Shown in pieces: positions 5,143-24,504 of a stretch of 64,000 nt of DNA; within the stretch, counting starts at the first letter, position 1, and every line of letters starts with the position of its first letter. A program made the position numbers and the translations under genes. Origin of the DNA: Candidatus Didemnitutus sp. (GTDB lineage Bacteria > Verrucomicrobiota > Verrucomicrobiia > Opitutales > Opitutaceae); the NCBI GenBank assembly GCA_017991595.1, contig JAGOQJ010000001.1, forward strand, positions 854,410 through 918,409, read 5' to 3'. The notes under the pieces were generated by a model, which saw nothing but the letters and a program-made list of their open reading frames with translations, made no database searches and had not been told where the DNA came from.

Positions 5143-5236
5143 GGTCAGGGGTGATGGGTTAGGGGTGATCGGTCGGCGGAGGAAGGGTTTTTTGTCCAAA
5201 CCCACACCTATGACCTATTGCCGATGACCCATCGCC
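5143..5236. repeat. inward-facing heptad repeat pair without an ORF (possible miniature element)
   Basis: On the plus strand successive 7-mers starting with GG run from 5143 to 5177 (for example GGTCAGG at 5143, GGTGATC at 5164), with weaker units to 5191. On the minus strand five 7-mers starting with GG run from 5236 back to 5202 (for example GGCGATG at 5230-5236, GGTCATA at 5209-5215). The two arrays face each other around a short centre. The topology and GGC/GGT heptads match those bounding the four-helix-bundle gene at 23 kb; GGCGATG is shared exactly. The array forms the purD leader. Confidence 0.65.
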
Positions 5237-5244
5237 CGGTGGCT

Positions 5245-22151: not shown

Positions 22152-23072
22152 TCAGCGCAGGAGCGTGGCGAGGTATTCGCCGTAGGAGGACTTGCCGTGG
22201 CGGGCGACGTTGGCCTCGAGGCGGGCGCGGTCGATCCAGCCGCGCTTGTAGGCGATCTCCTCGAGGCAGGCGAGTTTCAGGCCGGTGCGTTTCTCGAGCA
22301 CATGGACGAAAGTGCCGGCGTCGAGCAGCGAGTCGTGCGTGCCGGTGTCGAGCCAGGCGGTGCCGCGGCCGAAGAGCTCCACGTGCAGGCGGCCGCGCTC
22401 AAGGTAGAGGCGGTTGAGGTCGGTGATCTCCAGCTCGCCGCGGGCGGAGGGGCGCAGGCTGCGCGCAAGCGCGACGACGTCGCGGTCGTAGAAATAGAGC
22501 CCGGGCACGGCGTAGTTGGATTTCGGCTGACGGGGCTTCTCCTCGATGGAGAGCACGCGGCCGTCGGGGGAGAATTCGACGACGCCGTAGGCAGTGGGGT
22601 TGGCGACGTGATAGCCGAAGATGGTGGCGCCTGCGGTGCGCGCGCCGGCGGTGGCGAGCGTCTCGATGAATTCGTTGCCGTAGAAAAGATTGTCCCCGAG
22701 CACGAGCGCGGAGGGCTCGTTGCCGGTGAGGAAGCCGGTGTCGGCGGCGATGTGGAACGCTTGGGCGAGGCCCTCGGGCCGGGGTTGGGCGGCGTAGCTG
22801 AAGCGCACGCCGAAATGCGAACCGTCCTCGAGCAGGCGCTGGAAGAGCGGCAGGTCCTGCGGCGTGGAGATGACGAGGATCTCCCGGATGCCGGCCAGCA
22901 TGAGCACGGACAGCGGGTAATAGATCATCGGCTTGTCGTAGACTGGCATCAGCTGCTTGCTGGCGGCGATGGTCAGCGGGTAGAGGCGCGTGCCGGAGCC
23001 GCCGGCGAGCACAATACCCTTGCGGGTGTTGCCGGTCGAAGGGTGAATGGCGATGGGCGATGGGCTAGACAC
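22152..23072 (-). CDS. rmlA: glucose-1-phosphate thymidylyltransferase
   Basis: The enzyme makes dTDP-glucose from dTTP and glucose 1-phosphate. It has [57 protein letters not shown] and [13 protein letters not shown], all RmlA signatures. The start is unusual: no ATG lies at the expected family N-terminus. The nearest usable codon in frame is GTG at 23072, giving 306 residues and about 15 extra amino acids, part of them encoded by the heptad array of the neighbouring element. This GTG overlaps the stop of the four-helix-bundle gene by 8 nt. Confidence 0.92.
23034..23069 (+). repeat. left heptad array of the four-helix-bundle unit
   Basis: Four contiguous 7-mers beginning with GG cover 23042-23069, including GGCGATG twice in tandem at 23049 and 23056. 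A fifth, GGTCGAA, lies at 23034-23040, separated by one G. The last unit (GGCTAGA) contains, on the minus strand, the TAG stop of the small ORF, and the array also encodes the unusual N-terminus of rmlA. Confidence 0.75.
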
Positions 23073-23418
23073 GGGGAGAACGGGCTTTGATGAGAGCGCC
23101 AAGTTGCCGGGCGACTGAGACGGAGGACTCGAGAAGCGGTTTGACGGTGGCATCAGGCAGGGCGCCGACTGCTGAGGCAATTTCCAATTGAGTGCGCAAC
23201 TCCGCGAGCGAGCCCTTCGCGATGTAGAGATGTCGCACGCAGTCCTTGTCGGTATCGCGCTCGTCGCCTTCGGCAATGTTCGATGGAACGCTGACTGCCG
23301 CGCGTCGCATCTGATCGCGCAGACCGTAGTCACGCAGCGGTTCCGTGGCGCGATACACCGACACAGCCAAAGCCTTGGCTTCATGCCACACCCGCAAGTC
23401 GTGAAATCCGGTGCCCAT
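23065..23418 (-). CDS. four-helix-bundle protein (23S rRNA intervening-sequence protein family)
   Basis: The 117-residue helical protein has [18 protein letters not shown] at the N-terminus, [14 protein letters not shown] in the middle and [16 protein letters not shown] towards the end, the hallmarks of this family. Related proteins form pentameric four-helix bundles and are similar in fold to Avd of diversity-generating retroelements; the cellular role is not known. The ATG at 23418 lies in a heptad unit and gives the family N-terminus; a GTG at 23445 would add 9 residues read from the repeats. The gene is foreign to the nucleotide-sugar operon around it. Confidence 0.9.
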
Positions 23419-23443
23419 CGCCTGATGCCTTTCGCCTTTGGCC
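23409..23443 (-). repeat. right heptad array of the four-helix-bundle unit
   Basis: Five contiguous 7-mers beginning GGC read on the minus strand from 23443 to 23409, for example GGCCAAA at 23437-23443 and GGCGATG at 23416-23422. A partial unit extends to 23448, directly abutting the rmlB stop at 23449. Confidence 0.75.
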
Positions 23444-23448
23444 ACGCC

Positions 23449-24504
23449 TCAGCGGGCGGTGCCCAGTCGTTCTAGCTTGTAGGAACCGTCGAGGATCGAC
23501 TGCCACCAGGGTTGGTTTTCGAGATACCATTGGACGGTCTTGCGGAAGCCGGAGGTGTGGTCCTGCTGCGGGGTCCAGCCGAGCTCGCGTTTGATCTTCG
23601 TGGCGTCGATGGCGTAGCGGAGGTCGTGGCCGGGGCGGTCGGCGACGAAGGTGATGAGCGACTCGTAACGCGTGCCGTCGGCGCAGGGGCGGAGTTCGTC
23701 GAGGATCGAGCAGAGCAGGCGCACGAGGTCGAGGTTCCGGCGCTCGTTGTTGCCGCCGATGTTGTAGGTCTCGCCCGTGCGACCGCGGGTGAGGACGGCG
23801 TGCAGCGCCTCGGCGTGATCGCCGACGTAGAGCCAGTCGCGGATATTCTCGCCCTTACCGTAAACGGGGATCGGGTCGCCGCGCAGGGCCTTCAGGATGA
23901 CGACGGGGATGAGTTTCTCGGGAAACTGGTAGGGGCCGTAGTTGTTGGAGCAGTTCGTCACGAGGACGGGCAGACCGTAGGTATCGGCCCAGGCGCGGGC
24001 GAGGTGATCGGACGCGGCCTTGCTGGCGGAGTAGGGCGAGTGCGGATCGTAGGCGGTGGTCTCGGTGAACAGTCCGGCGGGTCCGAGCGAACCGTAAACC
24101 TCATCGGTGGAGACGTGGAGGAAACGGAAGCGCTCGCGCGCAGGGCCGGTGAGTTTATCGAAGTGACCGCGCGCGGCCTGGAGGAGCGTGAAGGTGCCGA
24201 CGACGTTCGTCTGGATGAACGCGCCGGGGCCGTCGATCGAGCGGTCGACGTGGCTCTCGGCGGCGAGGTGCATGACCGCGTTGGGCTGAAATTCCGCAAA
24301 GAGTTTCGCCATTGCCGCGGCGTCGCAGATGTCCGCCTGCGCGAAGCGGTAGCGCGGATGTGCGGCGACGTCGTCGAGCGAGTGGCGGTTGCCCGCGTAA
24401 GTGAGCTTGTCGACGTTGAGGACGGTGTGCTCCGTGGTGGTGAGGAGCAGCCGGACGAGATTGCTGCCGATGAAGCCGCAGCCGCCCGTCACTAAGATAT
24501 TCAT
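23449..24504 (-). CDS. rmlB: dTDP-glucose 4,6-dehydratase
   Basis: A 351-residue extended SDR that turns dTDP-glucose into dTDP-4-keto-6-deoxyglucose. NAD-binding [10 protein letters not shown] is at the start, [14 protein letters not shown] follows, the catalytic Thr133-Asp134-Glu135 lies in VSTDEVYG, Tyr158/Lys162 in YSASK, and then [14 protein letters not shown]. The ATG at 24504 is the family start. The leader is C-rich (CCAACCCCAACCC) with no Shine-Dalgarno. It is followed by rmlA, with the four-helix-bundle unit between. Confidence 0.96.

Follow-up and report, generated by a model that had tools for sequence, protein, structure and literature searches.

Matched, inward-facing heptad arrays as the ends of S23 gene units: a candidate selfish element without a transposase

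The window analyzed here, a DNA stretch of 64,000 nt, contains a gene of the S23/IVP four-helix-bundle family (23065–23418, minus strand; 354 nt, 117 aa) that lies between rmlB (23449–24504, minus strand), its upstream neighbor with the same direction, and rmlA (22152–23072, minus strand). The two neighbors were assigned with 490.5 bits for TIGR01181 (cut-off 365.1) and 461.8 bits for TIGR01207 (cut-off 360.65), respectively. The upstream array, starting 5 nt past the rmlB stop codon, consists of five contiguous 7-mers on the coding strand (23409–23443, minus strand; GGCCAAA GGCGAAA GGCATCA GGCGATG GGCACCG), and the downstream array of four 7-mers is inverted, that is, it reads on the plus strand, opposite to S23 (23042–23069; GGTGAAT GGCGATG GGCGATG GGCTAGA). 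Direct reading thus confirmed the contiguous heptads on both strands that the original prediction had described, as well as its statement that the small ORF starts and stops inside the arrays. The likely ATG (23418–23416, minus strand) is located within the fourth upstream heptad and the TAG stop codon (23067–23065, minus strand) within the downstream heptad GGCTAGA; an alternative, longer ORF of 126 aa starts at GTG 23445. S23 is the only gene between the arrays and, in agreement with the prediction, the unit has no transposase.

The nearest start codon of rmlA is GTG 23072, which overlaps the 3′ end of S23, and the frame from this GTG to the conserved RmlA start is devoid of ATG, GTG, and TTG. 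The downstream array therefore falls into an N-terminal extension of RmlA and, as judged from the reading frame, is probably coding. In relatives without the unit, the rmlA ATG immediately precedes the conserved part. Repeat detection in the window recovered a period-7 array at 23049–23065 and the inverted arms 23049–23058/23413–23422 (10/10) and 23039–23065/23413–23439 (74% over 27 nt), and the downstream array at S23 was one of four lag-7 stretches with scores of at least 10 in the 64 kb. The joint heptad score defined below was less than 6 for this copy (L001) and not below 6 for a sister at the same junction (L011). Taken alone, the repeats of the window are weak to modest, and it is the relatives that show more than chance. 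No Rfam match was found from 22500 to 24000.

For decades, the S23/IVP family has been familiar both from genes carried within 23S rRNA and from dispersed genes whose role is unknown. The predicted identity with the protein of the 23S insertions holds for the window gene, which scores 106 bits with PF05635 (cut-off 33.8) and 104.6 bits with TIGR02436 (cut-off 24). Its AlphaFold model (62-row alignment, pLDDT 96.2) agrees closely with XCC0516 (2gsc, five chains; TM 0.93) and also matches BT_0352 (2rld). The similarity to Avd (4dwl), which had likewise been proposed, was recovered at a weaker level (TM 0.77), and DGR ribonucleoproteins (8ube) were also matched. Matches to S23 were present in 12 of the 13 genomes of the genus, in 163 of the 200 genomes of the family, in 28 of 60 Flavobacteriales-type genomes (the order of G204), and in 25 of 59 genomes of the phylum of G206, and none was found in the 14 control genomes searched. 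Several matches, in the Flavobacteriales-type set and at locus L228, carry internal stop codons, as expected of decaying elements.

The flanks of S23 genes have a pronounced period of seven. For 57 Opitutaceae-type loci, a lag-7 score of at least 12 was reached by 47 of the 114 flanks, compared with 1 of 221 windows located 500–1,000 bases off; lag 14 was also raised, and the other lags were flat. The original prediction had called for a comparison within Verrucomicrobiota, and the arrays turned out to track the gene far beyond this phylum. In the phylum-wide set, which comprised the best 80 of at least 567 relatives from a motif scan and therefore favors canonical members, 102 of 156 flanks from many phyla had the lag-7 signal vs. 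26 of 1,010 control windows, and lag 8 was also raised (18/156 vs. 3/1,010). In addition, the two flanks of a gene match each other in inverted orientation. With the right flank reverse-complemented, the left flank matched it at 52 of the 57 loci when both belonged to the same gene, and at 17 of 57 when the right flank came from another locus; for the best 80 of at least 567 relatives, the corresponding values were 69/80 and 6/80.

Periodicity and inverted matching were then combined in a joint heptad score, defined as the score of the weaker side. A first version, the sum of both arrays, separated poorly (44 of 147 elements exceeded the 95th percentile of the swapped pairs), since a single long array was enough to raise it. 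With the final score, the cut-off of 7 was reached by 80 of 147 elements (153 minus 6 with short flanks), by 17 of the 588 pairs with swapped arrays, and, when direct orientation was scored, by 13 of the 147. The result was similar for 110 new elements, from which 13 copies of one planctomycete genome (G379), duplicates, and short flanks had been excluded: 44 reached the cut-off vs. 2 of 110 swapped, and at period 8 the cut-off was reached by 14 vs. 0 of 110 swapped, at period 9 by 2. About half of the elements (67/147 and 66/110) remain under the score-7 cut-off at period 7, and part of these have a period of 8 or 9 or degenerate words. By eye, seven loci from Bacteroidota and Patescibacteria (L116, L151, L165, L171, L173, L159, and L163) seem to have periods of 8 or 9. 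The typical array consists of 4–5 heptads (63/80 left and 56/80 right arrays), and some arrays are very long. We conclude that the heptad arrays are the matched, inward-facing ends of S23 units. The copies of G379 (L389–L398 and L364 among them) are 72–90% alike at the DNA level, share a conserved upstream hairpin, and lack heptads; they are another amplified kind of S23. This genome and a second planctomycete genome, G367, have 21 and 25 S23 matches, respectively.

Cyclic alignment of 74 different words revealed a common pattern (AG)NNNNN, in which two adjacent places are occupied by G in 97% and A in 77% of the words. The polarity of the AG core is fixed, that is, it is found on the coding strand upstream of S23 and on the other strand downstream. 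The information content of the core was 3.04 bits, compared with 2.41 bits for permuted positions (mean of 20; maximum 2.58) and 2.10 bits for randomized strands, and in the new set the coding strand fitted the AG core better in 51 of 59 elements. In this register, the upstream array of the window reads AGGCGAA, AGGCATC, AGGCGAT. The earlier description of heptads starting with GGC or GGT is thus accurate for the window, whereas the general repeat is (AG)NNNNN with a word that differs from element to element. The word is private to each element. Within one genome, the words of different elements had a similarity of 0.298 (51 pairs from 17 genomes, none above 0.6), compared with 0.274 between genomes; the similarity of the left and right words of one element was 0.717, a value that is inflated because the called elements had been chosen for this match. 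Four S23 copies in one Mesorhizobium genome (that of L138) have four different words, and, by eye, related S23 genes at the rmlB–rmlA junction have different words that are each matched on both sides. Array length and word also vary between orthologues at one site.

The words covary weakly with the S23 protein. After removal of same-site pairs, protein identity correlated with word similarity (Mantel r 0.168, p 0.001). Among 112 proteins with less than 60% identity, all of the top 10 associations between residues and nucleotides were located at one end of the bundle, which was delimited after the association list had been seen and makes up 53 of 116 columns. This end comprises the start of helix 1, the end of helix 2, the start of helix 3, and the end of helix 4, which would lie side by side in an up-down bundle, and it houses the invariant NIAEG region. 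With control labels, the fractions of associations at this end were 7/15 for GC, 1/15 for GATC, and 8/15 for purine. In the two data sets taken separately, 7/10 and 9/10 of the top associations mapped to the bundle end, and heptad position 2 scored high with residues 64 and 65 in both; the association scores of the two sets had no overall correlation (rho 0.05, p 0.20). Permutation in this test leaves ancestry in place, and the covariation, mostly at one bundle end, has to be read with this in mind.

At the RNA level, the computed duplex of the two arrays of one element had a median of −39.9 kcal/mol, compared with −16.5 kcal/mol when arrays were swapped (n = 113). The pairing of left and right arrays heptad by heptad did not exceed chance (mean mid-p 0.444, 86 loci), so that the support for a stem is limited to the word that both arrays have in common.

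The original prediction had proposed a comparison of syntenic rmlB–rmlA loci, and empty sites are indeed frequent. Among 76 rmlA loci, from the part of the rmlA places that was retrieved, S23 is located between rmlB and rmlA at 23, the two genes adjoin without S23 at 50, and they are not adjacent at 3. Within the genus, the junction is empty in G001, G004, G006, G009, and G011 and occupied in G000, G005, G007, and G008. At least two S23 lineages, 36–38% identical, are found at this junction with flanks that align. At five loci without S23 at the junction (L077, L080, L081, L177, and L197), the rmlA start looks heptad-derived and scar-like by eye. A second junction, between Mesorhizobium genes that we take to be an acyl-CoA dehydrogenase gene and an mmsB-like gene (ACD-mmsB), was analyzed at the best 30 of 99 genomes with a match: 10 loci contain S23, 19 are empty, with 24–29 nt from stop to start, and 1 (L260) contains two inverted arrays with a word of a different kind and lacks S23. 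For two flank-gene trees with 29 tips each (short, single-gene trees without support values; L246 was left out of the 30), the presence of S23 switches about 10 times per tree. Part of this patchy presence at one site could be due to the exchange of whole alleles by recombination. Inspection of the Mesorhizobium and rmlB–rmlA junctions by eye revealed no target-site duplication.

One pair of copies in a single planctomycete genome (L350 and L374) is 87.8% identical over 452 bp at unrelated flanking sites. Both copies are located directly past a TGA stop codon and have arrays with period 8, and their similarity spans from 69 or 77 bases before the ORF to 41 bases after it and stops at the arrays. 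This observation, the existence of empty sites, the tracking of the S23 family by the arrays, and the covariation of word and protein described above bear out the notion that a unit is bounded by the heptads, and thereby part of the original prediction, which saw in them the ends of a transposable or retro-type unit, perhaps recognized by the bundle protein. Few such pairs of copies were found among 291 elements. In a crude test for a location inside a 23S gene, with six rRNA motifs, none of the fetched S23 loci contained two or more of these motifs. The S23 loci from viral contigs number 31. Units L095 and L114 precede a gene with a start similar to that of a BREX Lon-like protease.

Arrays were also found without S23. 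Across 798 kb surrounding the best 80 of at least 567 loci, 77 arrays were near S23 and 96 were farther off; the far arrays formed 17 inverted pairs, 14 of which were inward-facing. The similarity of far arrays to the local S23 word was 0.645, compared with 0.481 to other words, and it exceeded 0.7 in 42 of 97 cases. The window itself contains an inverted heptad pair without S23 at 5143–5237, with one array at 5143–5173 (GGTCAGG GGTGATG GGTTAGG GGTGATC) and an inverted one at about 5204–5237. It fills the gap between two genes of the same direction, and its GGTGATG-like words are near the GGCGATG of the S23 unit. The adjacent gene is presumably purD-like, and part of the array pair may encode an N-terminal extension of this gene. 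Solo arrays were considered as a marker of S23-carrying genomes, which the one genome pair compared did not support: 200 kb of G016, a genome without an S23 match, contained 6 arrays, and 200 kb of G015, with 8 S23 copies, contained 1. Several of the G016 arrays are one-sided and directly precede start codons, as scars would. The original prediction had listed as counterevidence that the same arrays are common at unrelated genes and that empty-site polymorphism is missing; arrays at unrelated genes without S23 were found, whereas empty-site polymorphism exists.

Among known systems, the closest is the intervening sequence (IVS) in the 23S rRNA of Coxiella burnetii, which, in the accessible part of its description, contains an S23 ORF and a 28-bp terminal stem, is located in helix 45, and is excised by RNase III (PMC4990558). 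Tandem GACAGAT heptads, variable in number between strains, precede its ORF, and it is termed a selfish element (PMC4990558); the literature cited in the same part gives the XCC0516 ring as a pentamer. As far as that part of the description goes, the window unit and the IVS share an S23 ORF between complementary ends and heptads upstream of the ORF, and GACAGAT includes the AG core at period 7, as in the S23 units. The window unit differs by its location between rmlB and rmlA, not in rRNA, so that it is no IVS in the strict sense; by analogy, it appears as a variant of the IVS kind living outside rRNA. The GGGNATC heptamer arrays of Xanthomonas and Nostoc, as described in the accessible text, also have a period of 7, prefer four units, and lie between aligned ORFs; in Xcc they form 70 convergent pairs, and they were read as G-quadruplexes (PMC4692102). 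The Xcc strain described there also encodes XCC0516, the solved S23 relative, and the terms four-helix, four helix, and S23 do not occur in the accessible text (PMC4692102). In Beggiatoaceae, intergenic tandem TAACTGA heptamers were described, for which a repeat-binding protein was considered as the mobile part (PMC4679880). According to the accessible text of that paper, which does not contain the terms four helix and S23, these arrays are direct and precede ORFs, with one inverted case, unlike the inverted arrays of the S23 units (PMC4679880).

The S23 units also differ from several well-characterized mobile elements. In contrast to insertion sequences, they have no transposase, and no target-site duplication was seen by eye. 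In REP/RAYT systems, as in the S23 units, a gene lies between inverted short repeats, and copies of the REP repeats are also dispersed alone. RAYT is a Y1 transposase that recognizes REP hairpins; the S23 units have no Y1 transposase, and each copy ends in tandem heptads with a word of its own. Avd of the diversity-generating retroelements has the same fold as the window S23 and has been solved within a ribonucleoprotein that includes a reverse transcriptase, whereas neither a reverse transcriptase nor a template nor a variable repeat was found inside the S23 unit of the window, which has one ORF.

We interpret the unit as a compact, slow, transposase-free selfish element of the 23S-IVS kind with a predicted reading of its own arrays by S23, an interpretation to which we assign an even chance of being correct. 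It would consist of an array of about 4–5 AG-heptads and one S23 gene, followed by the array in inverted form. The fixed polarity and the matching of words need a reader, S23 is the sole gene, and the words track S23; therefore, S23 most likely binds its own arrays, as far as can be judged from sequence comparison. The S23 ring would read the heptad of its own element, perhaps with one heptad per subunit, and such reading would require one and the same private word on both sides. In the transcript, the two arrays would pair to form a long stem, and RNase III could cut out or trim the unit; protection of the transcript as in the Coxiella IVS may thus, by analogy, also apply to units outside rRNA. 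Cutting of the stem, together with an insertion point past a stop codon and an orientation that follows the operon, would make insertion nearly harmless. The element would be inherited at a site, often lost or exchanged, and rarely moved to a new site, with movement perhaps through RNA or single-stranded DNA.

Several of these features would also fit an RNA module of the operon that is not mobile. Here, S23 would act as a regulator by binding to the AG array of its own 5′ region, similar to TRAP, whose targets are AG triplets at even spacing; the downstream array would be an antisense switch, and the balance between the messages upstream and downstream would depend on RNase III. Such a module would account for the constant position of the AG array 5′ of the CT array and for the strong duplex of own arrays. 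It would also be compatible with the direction of the units, since the upstream gene has the same direction as S23 at 57 of 61 loci, compared with 277 of 415 neighbor pairs elsewhere in those loci (19 of the 80 loci, without 1,500 bases on both sides, were left out). The long vertical persistence of S23 at sites such as rmlB–rmlA and its rarity on replicons of other kinds, with 27 of 72,556 plasmid records (mainly cyanobacterial in the tally listed) and 0 of 50,697 phage records, point in the same direction. However, a resident regulator is difficult to reconcile with the frequent changes of presence at one junction, with neighbors that are unrelated housekeeping operons, and with two copies at unrelated sites of one genome, and a duplex switch is not helped by the lack of heptad-by-heptad pairing; we regard this explanation as unlikely.

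If, instead, the arrays were ends recognized by a trans-acting enzyme of the host or of another element, with S23 as cargo or accessory, the lack of a transposase in the unit would be explained, as would the array pairs without S23, most of which face inward, and the arrays of G016 without an S23 match. Yet each element of a genome has its own word, which one trans-acting enzyme would not explain, and the words track the S23 protein, so that we consider this reading quite improbable. Finally, the arrays could be by-products, in that slippage makes minisatellites, inverted-repeat correction keeps both sides alike, and S23 tolerates them. The differences in array length and word between orthologues at one site and the very long arrays would follow readily from such processes, but the fixed AG core with its fixed polarity, the covariation of the words with the protein, and the excess of period 7 at S23 genes over nearby DNA argue against it, and its probability appears to be very small.

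The interpretation as a selfish element that reads its own ends can be extended, tentatively and with clearly more doubt than confidence, to a bacteria-wide class of transposase-free mobile elements. The product of their sole gene would form a ring, and this ring would recognize, at both ends, a heptad code that is private to the element and anchored by the common AG core. The 23S IVS would be one landing site among others, and movement would proceed via RNA or a single strand that exposes the AG array, with host enzymes doing the chemistry. The parts were known separately, namely, the IVS with heptads, the GGGNATC arrays, and the TAACTGA arrays; their combination appears to be new, as no paper with such a link between S23 genes and inverted heptad arrays was found in the open-licence literature. 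The orphan S23 family thereby gains a concrete candidate ligand, a hint of the reading residues, and a natural series of proteins and words, and the old puzzle of the S23 genes becomes testable. If true, the interpretation would add a type of mobile element that dispenses with a transposase, as well as a nucleic-acid code that can be read.
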